The position numbers and the translations under genes are program-made. The notes beneath the pieces were generated by a model. It was not told the origin of the DNA. It was given only the letters and a program-made list of their open reading frames with translations, and made no database searches. Shown one piece after another: positions 17,417 through 27,620 of a stretch of DNA of 64,000 nt; position 1 is the stretch's first letter; each line of letters opens with the position of its first letter. This DNA is from Brevinematales bacterium (GTDB lineage: Bacteria; Spirochaetota; Brevinematia; Brevinematales; GWF1-51-8). The stretch is taken from positions 1 to 64,000 of the forward strand of contig JAGVBZ010000035.1 of the NCBI GenBank assembly GCA_020059465.1, read 5' to 3'.

Positions 17417-20400
17417 CTAAACCTCCTGAGATATTTGTTTTTTCAATTTACGTTCTAAAATAATACTATTTAATAACGGCACTACAATAATGGTAATCAG
17501 TTCGATGGTCATCCCGCCGATCGAGGGGACGGCCATCGGGCGGATAATCTCGCTGCCGCGTCCTGTCGCCCATAAGACCGGGACAAGCGCCAGGATTGTC
17601 GTCGCGGTAGTCATGAAGAGCGGCCTCGCGCGTTTCTGAATAGCGCTTAAAATGAGGCTATGTACTTCTTGGCGGGTTTTCGGCGGGTTTTCCTTTATAT
17701 GGTCGTTTATATAAGTAGTCAGGACTATGCCGTCGTCGACCGATATCCCGAAGAGCGCGATAAATCCTACGGCAACCGCGATACTCATATTATATCCGAG
17801 TATCCACAGCAGAATGATTCCGCCCGACAGGGTGATCGGGATTGCGAGGAATACGATCAGGGATTGCGGGACCGACTTGAACGAGAAATAAAGTATCATG
17901 AAAATCGCGAGTAAACATAGCGGAAGCACCAGCCCCATTTTCTCGAACGCCCTGATCTGGTTTTCGAAGTCTCCGGCAAACTCGTAGTAGTATCCCTTCG
18001 GCATCTGAATCTTTTCATCGATCAGTTTTTTCGCGGCGTTGACAAAATCCACCGGGCCTGTGCCGGGGAGCAGGTTGAGATAAACAATCCCGCGCAAAAT
18101 GCCGTTTTCGCTGTTGATCATACCCGGCCCCATGACTACATGAATGTCCGCGATACGCGAGAGCGGAATCTTTTCGCCCGACGGGGTAACGAACAGGATG
18201 TTCTTCAGTGCATCGAGATTATCGCGGTATTCCCGCATATATCGGATACGGACCGGGTAACGCTCGCGTCCCTCGACCGTCATCGTGAGGTTTTCTCCCC
18301 CGATTGCGGTTTCGATCACCTGCTGGACTTCCATAATGGATAGACCGAATTTAGCGATTTCGTTGCGGTCGATGATATATTCGATATACGGTTTCCCGAT
18401 AATCCGCTCGGCGTACGAATCGGAATAGCCGGGGACTTGGCGGACTATTTTTTCAATCTCCAGAGTCAGCTTCTCAATCTCCAGAAGGTCAGGCCCGAAT
18501 ACCTTGATCCCGACAGGGGTACGGATTCCTGTGGAAAGCATGTCGATACGGTTCTGGATCGGCTGTGTCCATATATTTCCGACACCGGGGATCTGGAGCG
18601 CGTGGTTCAGTTCGTTGATCAGTTTTTCCTTCGTCATACCCGGCCGCCATTGATCGACGGGTTTCAGGTTGATTATCGTCTCGATCATCTGAGTAGGCGC
18701 GGGGTCTGTCGCGCTGTCGATCCGTCCGAGCTTCCCGACTACCGACGCGACCTCGGGGAACGATTTGATGATCTCGTTCTGCTTAGTCAGGACTTCGTGC
18801 GTCTGGCTGAGGGACGCCGATGGAAGAAGCACGGGCATGAAAAGGAACGAACCCTCGTCAAGGGGCGGCCTGAACTCGTTCTGTATGCGGAAAACCAATA
18901 GGTATATAGAGAACAGGAAAATCACGCCGGGAATTGCCAGCACCCATTTATTCTTAAGCGCCCATTCGATAATTGCAGTGACGATTTCCTTGATTTTATG
19001 CGAAACGAGGAAAATCGACGTGACGAATATCATCGAGAAAATGAGCATCCATGCATTATCGTTAATCCATTTCCAAACCCCGCCCCAGTCCAGCCCGTTC
19101 CAGAGATGGATCAGCGTGAATACGCGCTCGATCAGCACCAACCCCGCGATCACCGCTCCGGCGATCTTCAGTTTGTACAGGGTCTTTTTCCCGCCGATTT
19201 TATCGAGGAATGCGGGTATGCCCTTTCGGCCGGGCATCACGAAATCGACGTAGAGGGATGGCAGCAGGAAAAGCGCGGTCAGAAGCGAGCCGATTAGGAC
19301 GAATGTTTTCGCATAGACCACCGGATGGAAGAGCTTAGCGCTCTGCCCCTCGAGGACAAGTATCGCAAAGAACGGGATAATAGTAGTCATGATCGCGCCT
19401 AACACCGCCCCGGCGACCTCTCCCGCGCCGCGCTGTACGACGAGAAGCGGATTTTTCCGTTCCGCAGGGCTATGTTCAGGATCGATTACATTTCGGTGGA
19501 TATTTTCTGTCATAATGATTCCCATATCGACTATCGTACCGATCGCTATAATAATACCGGCGAGCGACATAATATGCGCGTCGATATGGAACAGCTTCAT
19601 CATCAGGAATGAGAAAAGGACTGATATCGGGAGAGTCAGCGATATGATCAGGCTTATCCGCACGGGGAGCAGAAAGGCGAGGATTACCGCGATGGTAATC
19701 AGTATCTCGATAATCACGGCTTGTGTCAGCGTACCCTGTGTTTCCTGAATCAGTTCAGTGCGGTCGTAGAACGGGACGATATTAACCCCTTCGGGAAGTC
19801 CGGGGGAGATATCGGCGATCTTCTGCTTGATCTTATCGATTACTTCTTTGGGGTTCTGCCCGTATCGCATGATAACCACGCCGCCTACAGCTTCCTTTCC
19901 TTCCTTATCCAGCACTCCCTGACGGAAGTCCGGGCCTATGACCACATTCCCGATCTCTTTTATCCTGACCGGAACGCCGTTGTAGGAACCGATGACAATG
20001 TTTTCAATATCCTGTATATTCTTGATAAACCCGACGCCGCGGACCAGAAACTCCATCCCGTTGGCTTCAATCAGTTTCGCACCGACGTCGATATTCGCTT
20101 CCTTGACGGCCTTGACCAGTTCCGACATCTTGATATTGTACGCGAAGACCTTATTCGGGTCGATATCGATCTGGTATTGTTTGACATATCCGCCGATACT
20201 TGCGACCTCGGAAACACCCTCGACCGACGCCAGCGCGAATTTGATATACCAGTCCTGCAGGCTGCGGAGTTCCTGCAGGTTGTGTTTTTCGCTCTCGACC
20301 GTGTACCAGAACACCTGTCCGAGACCGGTCGCGTCGGGGCCGAGAATCGGAACAACCCCATCGGGAAGAAGGGTTTGGGCAAAATTGAGTTTTTCGAGCA

Positions 20401-20737
20401 CCCGGCTCCGCGCGAAGTAAAAATCGACGTTATCGTTGAAGATGATGTATATCATTGAGAAGCCGAACGCGCTCTGCGAACGGATTTCCTTCACACCCGG
20501 CACACCTTGGAGCGCGGTAGTCAGCGGGAATGTGACCTGATCCTCGATATCCTTCGGGCTTCTGCCCGGCCAGTCGGCGAAAACGATGACCTGATTCTCC
20601 CCGATATCGGGAATTGCGTCCACCGGTACCGACTGCAGGGATAGAAATCCGGCTATAATCATCGCGATAAACAACAGGTAAGCGATCAGGCGGTTCTCTA
20701 TGAAAAAGTTCGATATTTTTACTATAGGTTTCGACAT
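17417..20737 (-). CDS. cusA: CusA/CzcA-family heavy-metal RND efflux pump
   Basis: An inner-membrane proton-driven pump that exports metal ions (Cu/Ag or Zn/Co/Cd class) through the tripartite complex. The HME-RND start is clear: P-V-D-A-I-P-D-I-G-E-N-Q near residue 36, then W-P-G-R-S-P-K-D-I-E-D-Q-V. A G-T-I-V-D-M-G-I segment in TM4 carries the proton-relay Asp. At 1106 residues it is longer than E. coli CusA (about 1047); the extra length lies mid-protein, around residues 515-620, as additional hydrophobic segments. A GGAGGG site precedes the ATG. It is third in the operon after the outer-membrane factor and adaptor. The exact metal is not decided by sequence. Confidence 0.93.
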   Translation of the reverse strand: MSKPIVKISNFFIENRLIAYLLFIAMIIAGFLSLQSVPVDAIPDIGENQVIVFADWPGRSPKDIEDQVTFPLTTALQGVPGVKEIRSQSAFGFSMIYIIFNDNVDFYFARSRVLEKLNFAQTLLPDGVVPILGPDATGLGQVFWYTVESEKHNLQELRSLQDWYIKFALASVEGVSEVASIGGYVKQYQIDIDPNKVFAYNIKMSELVKAVKEANIDVGAKLIEANGMEFLVRGVGFIKNIQDIENIVIGSYNGVPVRIKEIGNVVIGPDFRQGVLDKEGKEAVGGVVIMRYGQNPKEVIDKIKQKIADISPGLPEGVNIVPFYDRTELIQETQGTLTQAVIIEILITIAVILAFLLPVRISLIISLTLPISVLFSFLMMKLFHIDAHIMSLAGIIIAIGTIVDMGIIMTENIHRNVIDPEHSPAERKNPLLVVQRGAGEVAGAVLGAIMTTIIPFFAILVLEGQSAKLFHPVVYAKTFVLIGSLLTALFLLPSLYVDFVMPGRKGIPAFLDKIGGKKTLYKLKIAGAVIAGLVLIERVFTLIHLWNGLDWGGVWKWINDNAWMLIFSMIFVTSIFLVSHKIKEIVTAIIEWALKNKWVLAIPGVIFLFSIYLLVFRIQNEFRPPLDEGSFLFMPVLLPSASLSQTHEVLTKQNEIIKSFPEVASVVGKLGRIDSATDPAPTQMIETIINLKPVDQWRPGMTKEKLINELNHALQIPGVGNIWTQPIQNRIDMLSTGIRTPVGIKVFGPDLLEIEKLTLEIEKIVRQVPGYSDSYAERIIGKPYIEYIIDRNEIAKFGLSIMEVQQVIETAIGGENLTMTVEGRERYPVRIRYMREYRDNLDALKNILFVTPSGEKIPLSRIADIHVVMGPGMINSENGILRGIVYLNLLPGTGPVDFVNAAKKLIDEKIQMPKGYYYEFAGDFENQIRAFEKMGLVLPLCLLAIFMILYFSFKSVPQSLIVFLAIPITLSGGIILLWILGYNMSIAVAVGFIALFGISVDDGIVLTTYINDHIKENPPKTRQEVHSLILSAIQKRARPLFMTTATTILALVPVLWATGRGSEIIRPMAVPSIGGMTIELITIIVVPLLNSIILERKLKKQISQEV

Positions 20738-20752
20738 TCGGCCCTCCGCGGA

Positions 20753-22222
20753 TTATTTCTCGTGCGGCAACGCCCCTGAATACTGGATGGACGCGCTGCC
20801 CGAAAGCTGGGCCTGCGAATCGATCAGGTACGCCCCGTAAGTAACCACTTTCTCGCCCTCTTTCAATCCGGTTACGACCGGATAATAATCCCCAATCTTC
20901 GGTTTCACGATGACCGTCCGTCCCTCGTACTGACCGTTGCCGAGCGAGACATAGACGATCTGGCGCATCCCGGTATCGAGGAGGGCGGTCGCGGGAATGA
21001 CAAGCGCTTTCTGCTGGTTTTTTCCCGTAATTACAGCATCGACATACATTTCCGGTTTAAGGATACCCCCGGTGTTCTGGAATTCGGCGCGAATCTTTAC
21101 CGTGCGGGTCATGGGATCGAGCACGGGATAGATAAATGTTATCTTTCCCTTCAGCACCTTCCCCGGGAATGCGACACCGGTCGCGGAAACTTCCATCCCG
21201 ATATGAATATCCGATATGTCCTGCTCGTAGATATCCGCTTCCATCCAAACCGTGCTCAGGTCGGCGATCTCATAGATAATATCACCTTCTTTGACGTACA
21301 TCCCAGTGTAAGCGTTCATTTTCAGCACGGTTCCGTTGACAGGGGAATAGATCGCGGTATGAACCTGGGTTTCCCCGGACTTCAGGATGCTGTCGATCTG
21401 GCCGGCGGATAAGCCGAGCAGGGAAAGTTTCTTTTTGGACGAATTCAGCAGGGACAGCGAGAGCGACGCGAGACTCTGTTCGCCTGCATTTTTTGAGATA
21501 GTATATTCCTTATATGTTTGAAGGAGTTCTTCCTGCGCGGTAATCAGCGGGGGCGAATAAATCAGGAGCAGGGGCTGGCCCTTTGAAACGGGAGAGCCGG
21601 TGTAATTCACGAAGAGCTTATCGAGACGTCCGTCTATCCGCGAACTGATCATATAGAGCTTCTTTTCGTCATATTTTATTTTTCCGACCGTTTTCACGGA
21701 TTTCTGGAGATTCATCACCGACACATCTGATAGAAGTACGCCGATATTCTTCTCCTGCTCCGGGGTGATCTGCACCGAGGAGTAAACTCCCTGATCGAGT
21801 ACATATTTAGGCGCGAGAACCATCCCGCAGATCGGGCAGTTTCCCGGCTGTTTCTCCCGCACTTCGGGATGCATCGGGCAGTAATAAAACTCGATCGCGG
21901 CGTTTTTCACCTCGGGGTACTGCACAGGAACCAGATCCATTTTACAGATCGGACAACTGCCCGGGTCATGCGCTTTTACATCGGGATGCATCGGGCAGGT
22001 ATAGTACCATACGTCGTTCGTCGAATGAGCATGGGATTCTTCCGCTTCGGCATAAACAGGAATATAGTCTTCCCCTTTATCGTTCTTCTTCGGCTCCGCG
22101 GATAATACATTCGGATTAAGCGGATCCTGATAGTACAAAACAGTTTTATCACGGTTTCCGGTATTCCCGCAGGAGATATAAAGAAACGCCATGAATAAAA
22201 GGGTTATTGCTGATAATTTCAT
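20753..22222 (-). CDS. cusB: CusB-like RND periplasmic adaptor with two heavy-metal-binding domains
   Basis: The membrane-fusion subunit linking pump and outer-membrane channel. It is a 489-residue lipoprotein (L-Y-I-S-C, Cys near 18). Two heavy-metal-binding domains of about 30 residues follow in tandem: Y-T-C-P-M-H-P-D-V ... C-P-I-C-K-M, and Y-Y-C-P-M-H-P-E-V ... C-P-I-C-G-M. Then come lipoyl, helical hairpin and beta-barrel domains (G-R-L-D-K-L-F-V, Y-S-P-V-N-G-T-V) typical of CusB. The C-P-M-H-P domains favour a copper/silver-type function. It is second in the operon, nine bases after the TolC-like gene. Confidence 0.93.
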   Translation of the reverse strand: MKLSAITLLFMAFLYISCGNTGNRDKTVLYYQDPLNPNVLSAEPKKNDKGEDYIPVYAEAEESHAHSTNDVWYYTCPMHPDVKAHDPGSCPICKMDLVPVQYPEVKNAAIEFYYCPMHPEVREKQPGNCPICGMVLAPKYVLDQGVYSSVQITPEQEKNIGVLLSDVSVMNLQKSVKTVGKIKYDEKKLYMISSRIDGRLDKLFVNYTGSPVSKGQPLLLIYSPPLITAQEELLQTYKEYTISKNAGEQSLASLSLSLLNSSKKKLSLLGLSAGQIDSILKSGETQVHTAIYSPVNGTVLKMNAYTGMYVKEGDIIYEIADLSTVWMEADIYEQDISDIHIGMEVSATGVAFPGKVLKGKITFIYPVLDPMTRTVKIRAEFQNTGGILKPEMYVDAVITGKNQQKALVIPATALLDTGMRQIVYVSLGNGQYEGRTVIVKPKIGDYYPVVTGLKEGEKVVTYGAYLIDSQAQLSGSASIQYSGALPHEK

Positions 22223-22231
22223 AGCCGACTC

Positions 22232-23467
22232 CTATTTTAATAAAACAAATTCTTTGCCGGTAATCACTTCGAGCAGGAAGTGCTTTTCATATAGCATCCG
22301 TACCGTCATAATGAATTCCAGCCGCATATTGTAGTACATCAGCACCGAATCGAGAAGCTCCTTGAATCCCGCTTTCTGTACCTGATATGCGGAAAGCATA
22401 TTGGCGATATTGTTTTCGCTGAGTTTAATGATCTGGTTTCTGAGGATATTCGCCTGAGCGGTCAGGGTACTGATATCCAGAAGCGTCTGCGCGATTGCGC
22501 GGCTCACTTCGTCGGCGACCGCCTGCTTCATCAGAACTGCCTCCGTTTTTTTATCCGCGTACATTCCGATCATTCCCCCTTTTTTCGGGGCGGAGAAAAG
22601 CGGCAGATTGAGCATGAAGTCCAATGAAAACATATGGTCGTTCATCGAAGGAGTGTACATATAGCTTACGCCCGCTCCGAGATCGGGAAATACCTCAGCG
22701 GCCGCGAGCGCACCGAGCGCGTCCATTTTTTTTATCTCATATTCAGCAGACTGATATCCGGGATGATTGCTCAGGGCGTACTCGGTCAGCGTAAAAGTAT
22801 TTTGCTGAATAGACGGGATATTGCTCAGTTCGAGCCGGGGCGGGATAAAACTGAAATCCGTCAGAGGGAGATCGGTGATATCCAGAATACGGCTTCGGAT
22901 CAGTGCGAGCATGTTAGTAAGCTCGATTATTTTATTATTGAGGCTGGAAATACGGATTTCAATATCGACGACTGATGCGAGAAGCCCTTTCCCTGTAGAA
23001 TAATCGGTCTTGATAATACTCCCGAGCCGTTCGAGCAGTTTCAGTTCGTCGCGGTAAACCTCGAATTCCTGAATTGTCGCCGAGTAATCCGCGCTTAGTG
23101 ATAGAAGCTGCATTTTTAGCATACGCTGTATATATATCCGGTTTGCGGTACTTTTCTGATAATCCATCTCTGCGGCTTGCGCCTTGAACCCGGTCTTGCC
23201 CCATAACGGGAACATCTGCTGGATAGATATCATATGCTGAAGCTTGCCGGAATCGCCCGGAGAGATGTTTTTCAGTGAGTACATCAGGATAGTATCGCTC
23301 CAACCGCTCTGGACGGAAATATCCTTAGACATAGCCTGTGACACCGCAAGGTTCTGTTTTAATCCGAGATTATTGGAAAGGGCCGAGTTAATCAAGTCGT
23401 TGACATTGTAATCCTTGGCGTATATAAAGTTACACAGACAAAGGAAAAATAAAACAACTTTTTTCAT
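22232..23467 (-). CDS. TolC/CusC-family outer-membrane efflux channel protein
   Basis: The outer-membrane factor of the metal efflux complex. It is 411 residues with a signal peptide (cleavage near residue 18, F-I-Y-A-K) and two outer-membrane-efflux-protein repeats of alpha-helical hairpins. The first begins N-D-L-I-N-S-A-L-S-N-N, the second T-E-Y-A-L-S-N-H-P-G-Y-Q; both are characteristic openings of OEP repeats. It is first in the operon, with AGGAGGAT before the ATG and a promoter at 23619-23647. No lipobox is present, unlike CusC of E. coli. Confidence 0.9.
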   Translation of the reverse strand: MKKVVLFFLCLCNFIYAKDYNVNDLINSALSNNLGLKQNLAVSQAMSKDISVQSGWSDTILMYSLKNISPGDSGKLQHMISIQQMFPLWGKTGFKAQAAEMDYQKSTANRIYIQRMLKMQLLSLSADYSATIQEFEVYRDELKLLERLGSIIKTDYSTGKGLLASVVDIEIRISSLNNKIIELTNMLALIRSRILDITDLPLTDFSFIPPRLELSNIPSIQQNTFTLTEYALSNHPGYQSAEYEIKKMDALGALAAAEVFPDLGAGVSYMYTPSMNDHMFSLDFMLNLPLFSAPKKGGMIGMYADKKTEAVLMKQAVADEVSRAIAQTLLDISTLTAQANILRNQIIKLSENNIANMLSAYQVQKAGFKELLDSVLMYYNMRLEFIMTVRMLYEKHFLLEVITGKEFVLLK

Positions 23468-24305: not shown

Positions 24306-24334
24306 ATTCTAATAGTTAAACGAATAACTTGCAA
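24306..24334 (-). promoter_or_regulatory. Promoter of upp, sharing its -35 with the opposite promoter
   Basis: Minus strand: TTGCAA (24334-24329), 17-bp spacer, TAGAAT (24311-24306). The -35 hexamer is self-complementary and is also the -35 of the plus-strand promoter at 24329-24357. Confidence 0.55.
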
Positions 24335-24357
24335 TGAATATCAATTTTCGATAAAAT
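24329..24357 (+). promoter_or_regulatory. Promoter of the membrane-paralogue/AAA+ locus
   Basis: TTGCAA (24329-24334), 17-bp spacer, TAAAAT (24352-24357), 26 bp upstream of the ATG at 24384. It shares the palindromic -35 hexamer with the upp promoter. Confidence 0.6.
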
Positions 24358-24383
24358 AAGACAAATAGAAGGAGGGTATAAAA

Positions 24384-24881
24384 ATGGATAACGAAATTTT
24401 CTGTGAAAAGCAGCCTTTTAGGATCTGGTGGATATGGGTGATAATTCTATTACTTGTCGGTTTAGGGTGGTGGGCATTCGTTCAGCAGATTATTCTTAAC
24501 ATACCTTGGGGAAATAAACCCATGTCTGATACCGGTACGATAATAGTTTGGGTGTCAACGTCTATAGTTTTACCGATTTTTATGCTAATTCTAGGGTTGA
24601 GGACGCATGTAACGCAGGACGGGGTATATTTCAAGTACTTTCCCCTTCATCTGAGGAAAAAGAGTATCCCCCGGGAAGATATTGTAAAATGTGAAGCAAT
24701 CGAGTTCCATCCAATCCGGGAGTACGGCGGATGGGGAATCCGTTATGGAAAATCGGGATGGGCTTACATTGTATCCGGTAAAAAGGGCGTTATGATCGAG
24801 AAGAAGAACGGGAAAAAAGTTCTGATCGGATCGTTAAAAGCTGACGAGTTAGCGAATGCTATAAATAGTATCTTGAAATAG
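24384..24881 (+). CDS. Membrane-anchored PH-like domain protein, paralogue 1 (DUF6141-like)
   Basis: A 165-residue protein with two N-terminal transmembrane helices (about 13-35 and 48-72) after an F-R-I-W-W-I-W motif. The cytoplasmic domain of about 90 residues (V-T-Q-D-G-V-Y-F-K-Y-F-P...G-W-G-I-R-Y-G...G-K-K-V-L-I-G-S) has the look of a bacterial PH-like domain as in DUF6141 proteins. A strong GGAGGG site precedes the ATG. The next gene is a clear paralogue, and both lie directly upstream of the double AAA+ gene. Function unknown; PH-like membrane proteins often act as adaptors or lipid sensors. Confidence 0.8.
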   Translation: MDNEIFCEKQPFRIWWIWVIILLLVGLGWWAFVQQIILNIPWGNKPMSDTGTIIVWVSTSIVLPIFMLILGLRTHVTQDGVYFKYFPLHLRKKSIPREDIVKCEAIEFHPIREYGGWGIRYGKSGWAYIVSGKKGVMIEKKNGKKVLIGSLKADELANAINSILK

Positions 24882-24978
24882 TAATTAGCCTCAAAATGAT
24901 TGGAATATATTTTTCGACCGGTCCCTTTTTATTTTTAGGATGTTTATATGTTTCGCAAATCTAAGGGATTCGCAGAAT

Positions 24979-25007
24979 TTGCAATGAAATTACCTCTAAG
25001 TAAAAAT
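24979..25007 (+). promoter_or_regulatory. Possible second promoter before paralogue 2
   Basis: TTGCAA (24979-24984), 17-bp spacer, AAAAAT (25002-25007). The string TTGCAATGAA is identical to the start of the promoter before paralogue 1, suggesting the regulatory region was copied with the gene. The -10 is poor. Confidence 0.3.
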
Positions 25008-25032
25008 CGAACGATCTATATGGGAGGACTCA

Positions 25033-25536
25033 ATGCCGTTTGACAGCTACGTTTTCCATGAGACTCAGCGTTTTCGCGTATGGTGGATATGGCTTCTCAT
25101 TCTTGCTGCCGAGGGTGTTGCTTTATTTATGATTTTCACCCGCGTGCTTCCGGAAATAGAAGGGGGAGATTTTCCATTACCCGGATTTTTTATCCCGATA
25201 TTTTTCATCGTCCCTTTTCTAATCGCTCCTGCGATCCTATTTTTTATGAAATTGGATGTCCGTGTTTCCTCGGACGCCGTCTATTATCGATTATTTCCGT
25301 TTTCTTTCAGAACAAAGAAAATAGAAATGACTGAGATCGCAAGGACAGAATTGATCGAGTTCGATCCTTTTCTGGAAACGCGCGGGTGGGGAGTTCACTA
25401 TACGAAGTACGGAAAGGCTTATACGATGAGCGGAAAACAGGGAGTTCAGATTGAAACTATCAAGGGTAAAAAAGTATTGATCGGCTCTCAGAAGGCTCAT
25501 GAGTTTCTTGATGCGATAAAAAGTGTGAAGCTTTAG
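25033..25536 (+). CDS. Membrane-anchored PH-like domain protein, paralogue 2 (DUF6141-like)
   Basis: A 167-residue paralogue of the gene at 24384. Shared landmarks in order: F-R-[IV]-W-W-I-W, two transmembrane helices (about 15-37 and 49-71), V-Y-Y-R-L-F-P-F, E-x-x-E-F-x-P near residue 108, G-W-G-V-H-Y, S-G-K-Q-G-V, and K-K-V-L-I-G-S near the end. It starts after GGGAGGACTCA. Eight bases separate it from the AAA+ gene, whose ribosome site overlaps its stop codon region, so the two are co-transcribed. It may recruit the AAA+ protein to the membrane; that is inference from context. Confidence 0.8.
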   Translation: MPFDSYVFHETQRFRVWWIWLLILAAEGVALFMIFTRVLPEIEGGDFPLPGFFIPIFFIVPFLIAPAILFFMKLDVRVSSDAVYYRLFPFSFRTKKIEMTEIARTELIEFDPFLETRGWGVHYTKYGKAYTMSGKQGVQIETIKGKKVLIGSQKAHEFLDAIKSVKL

Positions 25537-25544
25537 GAGGAAAT

Positions 25545-27380
25545 GTGGCTCTGAAATGTACGAATTGCGGAAGGACGAACCGCGACATCGCTAAATACTG
25601 TAAATACTGCGGAACTGCCGTAGAAACTGAAAAATCGAAGAAATCGATGCCTGTGGTTGAAGACCTCGTGGGTTTGGAGACGATCAAGGGCGAGATCCGT
25701 AAAATGGTTACGGTCATCGAGGGGATGAAGCGCGAGGGCCGTACGATCCCCATGAACTTCAATACCGTGCTCGTGGGTTATTCCGGGACGGCGAAAACCC
25801 TGATCGGGAAAATCCTATGCCATATCTTTTTCGAGTACGGCCTCATCCAGAAAGAGGAACCGGTCACTTATAAAAGCAACGACCTGATCGGAATGAGCAA
25901 GGGGGTGTTCAAACAGCGGATCGACGACGCTCGCGGGGGAGTCCTGTTTATCGACGACACCGAGCTATTGGTCAAGCCGGAGGCGAAGGCCGGCGACGTT
26001 CTGAATACGCTTCTCGCGGAGATCGACCGTAAGTCCGACAATCTGATCGTGATCCTTACAGGTCTTCCCTTCGGTCTGCGGGAGTTTCTCCAGAAAGACG
26101 AGAATGCGAGTTTTATCGGGCGGTTCAAGAATATTTTCTATATCGCGGACTACTCTCCCGAACATCTTTCCAAGATCGCCGAAAAGGAGCTGGTGAAAAA
26201 CGGGTTTACCGTGGGCGCCGACGTTTTGGAAAAGCTCGACAAACGCTTTAGACGGCTCGTGAAGGAAGAAAAGAAAGTCGATACCGACAGTTATCCCAAG
26301 AACGGGCATATGGCTGTGCAGGAGGCAGGGAAGATTATCGACGCGTATTACCTGCGGCATGCGGCGGACAAGAAAATCATCCCCGACGATATTCAGGGAA
26401 AAATAGAAGAACGGAAATCCATCGACGAGATCATGAAGGAACTCGATGAATTTATCGGCATGAAGGATATCAAGGAATCTATCAAAGACCTTTACAGGCA
26501 GGTGAAAATACGGAAAGCGCGTATCGAGCAGGGGATGGACAAGGATAAGCCGATATCGTTCCATTCAGTCCTAACCGGGAATCCCGGCACCGGGAAAACG
26601 TCGGTATGCAGGGTGATCGGCAGTATATTCGAGGCGATCGGCGTGCTCGACTACGGGCATATCGTCGAGGTCGACCGCAGCAGGATGGTCGGATCGTATG
26701 TCGGTCATACCGGCCCGCTCGTGAACCGGCTCTGCGATCAGGCGATGGGCGGTATACTGTTTATCGACGAGGCGTACGAGCTCTACCAAAGTAAGGACGA
26801 CGATTTCGGGCATGAGGCGATCACGACCCTGATCAAACGGATGGAGGACGACCGGGGGAAATACTTCGTCTTCGCGGCGGGATACAGGAACGAGATGGAC
26901 CAGTTTGTCAACGCCAACCCCGGACTTAAGTCGAGAGTGGACATGTATTTTCATTTCGAGGATTATTCGCCCGATGAGCTGATGGAAATTGCGAAACTGA
27001 TGATAAAAAAAGAGGGGTACACGTTCGACGAGAGCGTAACACCCAAACTCCTCACATATATGAAAGAGCTTTGTGATAATAAGGGCCCGAATTTCGGGAA
27101 CGCCCGCGAATCGAGGAAGCTTTTCGAGAAGTATATCAAGAGCAGGCAATCCACAAGGGTGGCCGATCTGATGGACAAGGATGGGTTCGATAACGCCGAA
27201 CTGACGAAGATTACCGCTGAAGATATCCCCGATCATCCGGAGATCGAGAAGGGGAACAGCCAGTTTGAAAAAACTGTCGATACTGTCAAACAGGGTCTCG
27301 AACAGTATAAGAAAGACCTGCAGGATATTCAGAAGGGACTGAATGAGGTCGAGCCCGGTTCGGGAGAGGAGGCGAAATGA
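25545..27380 (+). CDS. Double AAA+ ATPase (CbbX/EccA-like) with N-terminal zinc ribbon
   Basis: A 611-residue protein starting at GTG after AGGAGG. Residues 5-22 form a zinc ribbon (C-T-N-C ... C-K-Y-C). Two CbbX/CfxQ-type AAA+ modules follow. The second is canonical: Walker A G-N-P-G-T-G-K-T (345-352), pore-loop region V-G-S-Y-V-G, Walker B F-I-D-E (406-409). The first keeps the fold but has Ala83 in place of the last Walker A glycine (G-Y-S-G-T-A-K-T) and Asp138 in place of the catalytic glutamate (F-I-D-D), so it is probably a weak or inactive ATPase. A helical, charged C-terminal tail follows (about 565-611). Relatives remodel protein complexes, such as Rubisco activation or type VII secretion; no such partner is encoded here. 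Confidence 0.88.
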   Translation: MALKCTNCGRTNRDIAKYCKYCGTAVETEKSKKSMPVVEDLVGLETIKGEIRKMVTVIEGMKREGRTIPMNFNTVLVGYSGTAKTLIGKILCHIFFEYGLIQKEEPVTYKSNDLIGMSKGVFKQRIDDARGGVLFIDDTELLVKPEAKAGDVLNTLLAEIDRKSDNLIVILTGLPFGLREFLQKDENASFIGRFKNIFYIADYSPEHLSKIAEKELVKNGFTVGADVLEKLDKRFRRLVKEEKKVDTDSYPKNGHMAVQEAGKIIDAYYLRHAADKKIIPDDIQGKIEERKSIDEIMKELDEFIGMKDIKESIKDLYRQVKIRKARIEQGMDKDKPISFHSVLTGNPGTGKTSVCRVIGSIFEAIGVLDYGHIVEVDRSRMVGSYVGHTGPLVNRLCDQAMGGILFIDEAYELYQSKDDDFGHEAITTLIKRMEDDRGKYFVFAAGYRNEMDQFVNANPGLKSRVDMYFHFEDYSPDELMEIAKLMIKKEGYTFDESVTPKLLTYMKELCDNKGPNFGNARESRKLFEKYIKSRQSTRVADLMDKDGFDNAELTKITAEDIPDHPEIEKGNSQFEKTVDTVKQGLEQYKKDLQDIQKGLNEVEPGSGEEAK

Positions 27381-27559
27381 AGTGCGAATTCTGCCATTCT
27401 GAAATAGACGTGGATTCTTTGTTCTGCGATCAGTGCGGAAAGAAGCTGAATGTTACACTGTCGGAGACTCCCTCGGCGGCTCCGGCCGAGCCCTCGATGA
27501 AACGGGAGGAGCCTAAGACCTACCTTGGGAAACTCGGCGATATTTTCTATAGAAAGTAG
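27377..27559 (+). CDS. Small zinc-ribbon protein coupled to the AAA+ gene
   Basis: A 60-residue protein overlapping the AAA+ stop by four bases (ATGA). Its N-terminus, C-E-F-C-H-S-E-I then F-C-D-Q-C-G-K-K-L, is a zinc ribbon resembling that at the AAA+ N-terminus (C-T-N-C ... Y-C-K-Y-C-G). A Pro/Ala/Ser-rich linker and a conserved-looking tail, Y-L-G-K-L-G-D-I-F-Y, follow. The overlap and shared ribbon suggest an adaptor or subunit of the AAA+ protein. It ends the operon. Confidence 0.75.
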   Translation: MKCEFCHSEIDVDSLFCDQCGKKLNVTLSETPSAAPAEPSMKREEPKTYLGKLGDIFYRK

Positions 27560-27591: not shown

Positions 27592-27620
27592 TTGACACAG
27601 GCTGAAAATCCGTCTAAAAT
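27592..27620 (+). promoter_or_regulatory. Promoter of the thioesterase operon
   Basis: TTGACA (27592-27597), 17-bp spacer, TAAAAT (27615-27620), 31 bp before the GTG at 27652. Confidence 0.7.

Follow-up and report, generated by a model that had tools for sequence, protein, structure and literature searches.

Characterised members of the SpoVK/CbbX/EccA clade of AAA+ ATPases are narrow-target chaperones with variable N-terminal docking domains, through which they are recruited and in which their specificity is thought to lie, and a GY sensor-1 signature is diagnostic for the clade (PMC10659427). The legend of Fig. 3A in that study defines a zinc-binding label, "ZnBd", which hints at an association between the clade and zinc-binding domains. 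A second described system, the threonine phosphorylation pathway of type VI secretion, consists of a kinase, the PP2C phosphatase PppA and Fha (PMC5995506). Here, we analysed a locus in a 64,000-nucleotide stretch of DNA (contig JAGVBZ010000035.1, positions 1 to 64,000; hereafter the window) from an uncultured spirochaete, a Brevinematales bacterium. In this locus, two genes for DUF6141 membrane proteins (PH1 and PH2) are followed by a gene for an AAA+ protein headed by a zinc ribbon (ZnR) and by a gene for a 60-aa zinc-ribbon peptide. Comparison with other Spirochaetota led us to regard the locus as probably a reduced, re-wired variant of a kinase/FHA-linked cluster around ZnR-headed AAA+ remodellers. 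The features of the locus, including the first (AAA1) and second (AAA2) ATPase modules, are listed below.

24329-24357, +, promoter-like site upstream of PH1, TTGCAA-17-TAAAAT (consensus match only)
24384-24881, +, PH1, DUF6141 protein of 165 aa with two transmembrane helices and a putative PH-like domain (PF19638)
25033-25536, +, PH2, DUF6141 paralogue of 167 aa (PF19638, just under cut-off)
25545-27380, +, AAA+ protein of 611 aa with GTG start: zinc ribbon, AAA1, AAA2 and C-terminal helix
25557-25613, +, N-terminal zinc ribbon of the AAA+ protein, residues 5-23, CxxCx3NRxxAK[YF]CxxCG (PF13240, 27.1 bits)
25659-26396, +, AAA1, residues 39-284, non-canonical, lacking pore loop and GY, with GYSGTAKT as Walker A and IDD as Walker B
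26445-27230, +, AAA2, a canonical lid-bearing module of SpoVK/CbbX/EccA type, residues 301-562 (PF00004 and PF17866)
27261-27344, +, C-terminal helix of the AAA+ protein, residues 573-600, 28 residues (QFEKTVDTVKQGLEQYKKDLQ..)
27367-27372, +, Shine-Dalgarno sequence AGGAGG of the peptide, within the AAA+ gene (from sequence)
27377-27559, +, 60-aa zinc-ribbon peptide
27383-27439, +, peptide residues 3-21, a zinc ribbon of the class seen in ZnR-FHA partners (ribbon identity comparison)
27506-27556, +, peptide residues 44-60, a conserved tail in place of an FHA domain (congener comparison)

The second module of the AAA+ protein showed the features expected of the clade. PF00004 and PF17866 (AAA_lid_6) both scored above cut-off, the Walker A (GNPGTGKT) and Walker B (LFIDEA) motifs were intact, and both the Asn preceding the arginine finger (NPGLKSR) and a sensor-2 arginine (FGNAR) were found, as in other clade members. 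AAA2 also carried the GY sensor-1 signature (AGY), where AAA1 instead reads TGL; AAA1 also lacked the Asn. The models for SpoVK (TIGR02881; expectation value [E] 4e-94, 314 bits), CbbX (TIGR02880; 272 bits) and EccA (TIGR03922; 281 bits) all matched AAA2, and the nearest solved structures were CbbX (3syk, E 6e-51, for AAA2) and EccA1. Judged by these motifs and matches, AAA2 belongs to the SpoVK/CbbX/EccA clade. The protein differs from the named members, however, in reaching none of the NCBIfam equivalog cut-offs (423, 459 and 467, respectively), in its tandem array headed by a zinc ribbon and a pore-less AAA1, and in its paired zinc-ribbon adaptor. Nor does the window locus hold a Rubisco, type VII secretion or sporulation partner: the immediate neighbours include no Rubisco gene that would speak for CbbX, and SpoVK is confined to sporulating Firmicutes whereas the host is a spirochaete. 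Beyond AAA2, the C-terminal helix was near-invariant within the genus and may serve in partner binding or oligomerisation; the homologue in genome G515 has no such helix and ends at the lid. An AlphaFold model of the AAA+ protein was too poor for use (predicted local distance difference test score [pLDDT] 45).

The head of the protein defined a wider family. We searched 393 Spirochaetota genomes with profile A5, which spans the zinc ribbon and AAA1 and scored above 300 bits in 13 genomes, with ordinary AAA modules at no more than 189 bits; two further members were found in family f42 (G460, 285 bits; G515, 229 bits). Outside the window genus, the sole genus in its class to give a match, the family was present in 12 genomes (G176, G515, G460, G137, G356, G238, G350, G268, G086, G188, G194 and G285) from four families (f22, f23, f38 and f42). 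The G356 protein is cut by a contig end; 11 distant loci were readable. Across 12 family members, the C, C, N, R, A, C, C and G of the AAA+ ribbon were invariant. An aromatic pore-loop motif, [YF][VIL]G, was found in 0/15 first modules versus 46/46 other aligned modules, and the GY signature was likewise absent from all 15 first modules, in which Walker A was mostly kept and the catalytic acid of Walker B was E, D, N or lost. Behind AAA1, complete distant proteins carried two or three canonical modules, and the window protein one, AAA2. By their profile scores, ZnR-AAA1 proteins form a separate group, and the window protein, in which a CxxC..NRxxAKxC..CG ribbon heads an AAA1 without pore loop, fits as a member. 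As a side observation, G011 (L069, 778-4287) and G054 (L068, 207-2804) encode tandem arrays of two to three canonical SpoVK/CbbX-type modules with neither the zinc ribbon nor AAA1.

A first-pass annotation of the window, made from sequence alone, had described the first ATPase as degenerate, with altered Walker A (Ala83) and Walker B (Asp138) residues. Both residues were as described, and both were invariant in the three congeneric species. By itself, Ala83 argues only weakly for a dead site, and we rejected it as proof, because the G515 first module also reads GTAKT. The absence of both pore loop and GY is better evidence that AAA1 has a special role. These motifs are most naturally read as those of a module that would bind nucleotide and regulate, without threading substrate.

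The most constant neighbour of the AAA+ gene was a zinc-ribbon gene, which lay directly 3' of it in 11/11 readable distant loci and in the three congeneric species, with a spacing of -4 nt in most distant loci (-1 in G238, +52 in G176). The earlier suggestion of a CbbX/EccA-type remodeller with a dedicated small zinc-ribbon partner was thus supported, the pairing being conserved beyond the genus. In nine of the 11 distant loci, this partner carries an FHA domain (called by Pfam in G188, G238 and G176, and in the others with a profile built from such proteins), and the phosphothreonine-binding motifs GR, SxxH and NG (PMC1262709) were visible in most aligned ZnR-FHA members. A PP2C phosphatase gene came next after the ZnR-FHA gene in nine loci (G176, G137, G238, G086, G188, G194, G285, G460 and G515), and a Ser/Thr kinase gene was found near the AAA+ gene in 9/12 genomes (G176, G515, G460, G137, G356, G238, G086, G188 and G194). 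DZR proteins, which have several zinc ribbons (Pfam), were also common near the AAA+ gene in relatives. In G350 and G268, the partner (L066, 4198-4941; L067, 7128-7853) has an unrelated C-terminal part replacing FHA, which constitutes a third adaptor form.

Since zinc ribbons of all classes cross-match weakly in profile searches, profile scores alone would not show the class of the 60-aa peptide. Over the 19-residue core, the peptide ribbon was identical to FHA-partner ribbons at a mean of 12.2 positions (best 14), to DZR proteins at 8.1 and to AAA+ ribbons, including that of its own AAA+ protein, at 6.3. The idea that the AAA+ protein and the peptide carry matching ribbons was hence abandoned. 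Instead, the peptide bears the ID-DS-CDQCG signature of the FHA partner and occupies the same gene position, and by this resemblance it is best described as a cut-down relative of the zinc-ribbon-FHA protein. Its tail, previously noted as conserved-looking, was indeed near-invariant in the genus (EEPK[TS]YL[GS]KLGDIFYR), with a variable linker, and no second copy of the peptide turned up in any genome of the genus.

It could be argued that the locus encodes an ordinary SpoVK/CbbX-type chaperone with incidental neighbours and that the peptide is a decaying, functionless ZnR-FHA remnant, as AAA2 is a plain clade member and the peptide has no FHA domain. We consider this unlikely. The peptide is kept in three species, with 75% and 65% identity to the two congeners, and has a strong Shine-Dalgarno sequence and a near-invariant tail; its ratio of nonsynonymous to synonymous substitutions (dN/dS) of 0.12 versus G002 indicates purifying selection. 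For the AAA+ protein (89% and 81% identical to the two congeners), dN/dS was 0.05-0.10, a range shared by its two AAA modules, with conservation of AAA1 as strong as that of AAA2. Given this conservation and the low dN/dS, the AAA+ and peptide genes are real; all four open reading frames lie where they had first been annotated.

The kinase/PP2C/FHA set typical of most family members was not found in the window locus, and no FHA or PP2C gene was found in the window genome or the two congeners. Kinases were few in these genomes, the sole one of the window genome being a protein of ~1714 aa encoded on another contig. We therefore favour the view that these three genomes, without FHA and PP2C, hold a stripped-down form of the kinase/FHA-linked cluster. 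The opposite polarity, in which the compact form is ancestral and kinase, FHA and PP2C genes were added in other spirochaetes, is in our judgement very improbable: the compact form has fewer genes and presence/absence alone is known, but the full form occurs in several families (f22, f23, f38 and f42) and the compact form in one genus only. Moreover, in a tree of AAA modules, the first modules fell on one side of a branch (support 99/93), and the window AAA1 grouped with the AAA1 of G176, a bearer of the full set (support 100/100).

Several points nevertheless weigh against a reduced and re-wired cluster. Presence/absence data are compatible with both loss and original absence of the kinase arm, long branches meet in the AAA-module tree, and the whole-genome search covered the Spirochaetota. 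The partners in G350 and G268 carry no FHA domain, and no kinase or PP2C match was found near them. Lastly, although the link between DUF6141 and the AAA+ gene is specific, it may go back to one or two insertion events within a single lineage, because synteny with the congeners extends across the whole region and is not limited to the locus. For the same reason, co-location of the locus within the genus is by itself no functional evidence.

Three congeners (G002, G003 and G001) were compared, and the locus was present in two of them, G002 and G003. The third, G001, is uninformative on the locus: its assembly is 73% complete, and the contig breaks off next door, inside the adjoining radical-SAM gene. 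Only part of the locus in the window is tightly packed, as had been proposed for all of it: PH2 and the AAA+ gene are 8 nt apart and the AAA+ and peptide genes overlap by 4 nt (ATGA), but 151 nt separate PH1 from PH2. PH1 scored 31.9 bits against PF19638, above the Pfam cut-off of 27, and PH2 scored 26.9 bits, marginally below it. The two are 39% identical, so the claim of two paralogous membrane proteins holds for the window, but G002 and G003 have one DUF6141 gene each, a PH2 orthologue (63%) and a PH1 orthologue (48%), respectively. A model of PH2 (pLDDT 74, from three sequences) showed helices at residues 17-38 and 53-70 and a beta-rich domain, whose best matches in the PDB were mostly PH/PTB folds and weak (E>=0.007, TM-score 0.3-0.4 by query length).

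Among the 393 genomes, DUF6141 scored above cut-off in this genus only, and for this reason a conserved four-gene system, as first proposed, was rejected; what survives of that interpretation is the pair of AAA+ protein and zinc-ribbon partner, and the kinase/PP2C/FHA cluster of the relatives had been missed. The AAA+ protein and the peptide might thus form one unit, with the DUF6141 genes a chance, unrelated insertion upstream. This alternative is possible, if rather doubtful: none of the 12 distant family loci has DUF6141 nearby and copy number differs between congeners, but in the three species all four DUF6141 genes are placed directly upstream of the AAA+ gene, with the nearest copy 8-23 nt from its start, despite the retention of different paralogues. 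DUF6141 proteins may anchor the AAA+ machine at the membrane. The family (PF19638) is otherwise distinguished here by its place within an AAA+ operon; we found no paper on DUF6141 in the open full-text literature, subscription papers being outside our scope. In G137, the protein encoded directly before the AAA+ gene (L064, 3848-4987) has seven predicted transmembrane stretches, a zinc-ribbon-like N terminus and an SH3 domain, and is a possible independent membrane anchor.

From the genes, homologies, motifs and co-location observed above, a scheme for assembly, docking, tethering, remodelling and evolutionary direction can be proposed. In the full form, the kinase, PP2C and ZnR-FHA adaptor would presumably steer a ring of two to three active pore-loop modules to phosphorylated targets, with the FHA domain of the adaptor bringing the phosphorylated clients, and the pore-less AAA1 fused to the zinc ribbon probably serving as regulator and docking platform. 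In the window genus, the phosphatase and FHA reader would have been lost, with no kinase in the locus, and the machine would retain AAA2 as its single active module. The adaptor would be reduced to a zinc ribbon, with a short amphipathic tail as a new addition, and one or two DUF6141 proteins would have joined upstream, probably to hold the machine at the inner membrane. The peptide ribbon may dock on the AAA+ ring while its tail contacts the client or the cytosolic domain of DUF6141, taking the role of FHA, and AAA2 would then remodel the client with ATP. A more ambitious version, which we advance tentatively and at somewhat less than even confidence, is that of a spirochaete family of phospho-regulated AAA+ remodellers (zinc ribbon, pore-less AAA1 and one to three active SpoVK/CbbX-type modules, with kinase, PP2C and ZnR-FHA adaptor), of which the window locus is a kinase-independent, membrane-tethered derivative with the 60-residue peptide in place of the FHA adaptor.

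By analogy, the clusters of the relatives, in which an ATPase machine is accompanied by a kinase, a PP2C phosphatase and an FHA reader, resemble the threonine phosphorylation pathway of type VI secretion. However, the AAA+ protein is of the SpoVK/CbbX clade and not ClpV, the spirochaete FHA protein bears a zinc ribbon, the window locus is without all three phospho-parts, and no type VI secretion genes were recognised in the neighbourhoods examined. No description of the kinase/PP2C/ZnR-FHA/ZnR-AAA1 cluster was found in the open full-text papers, so the cluster is apparently undescribed so far, while its AAA+ protein belongs to a known clade. The family offers a modular case in which the zinc-ribbon head and pore-less module stay constant and the partner keeps its ribbon and swaps its recognition part (FHA, another domain or a short tail), with one to three active modules. 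Comparing these forms would reveal how AAA+ machines are re-targeted, and whether a peptide and a membrane anchor can replace a kinase-FHA switch.

Two other assignments were considered and rejected. PADLOC gave no family match to an anti-phage defence system, with weak generic AAA matches only; and matches on plasmids and phages looked like generic SpoVK/CbbX modules, with no plasmid match for the ZnR-FHA protein. Among the plasmid matches, those in Streptomyces (H3-H20) were multi-module AAA+ proteins of the SpoVK/CbbX clade annotated as parallel beta-helix proteins. Promoter-like sites, all consensus matches only, numbered 14 in the region versus 7.2 in shuffles, and one of them (27592-27620) precedes the gene after the peptide. 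Upstream of the locus, the minus strand at 17417-23467 encodes an ordinary-looking RND-type efflux set (outer-membrane channel, adaptor and pump), whose adaptor (20753-22222) carries two CPMHP..CPIC motifs resembling heavy-metal-binding sites.

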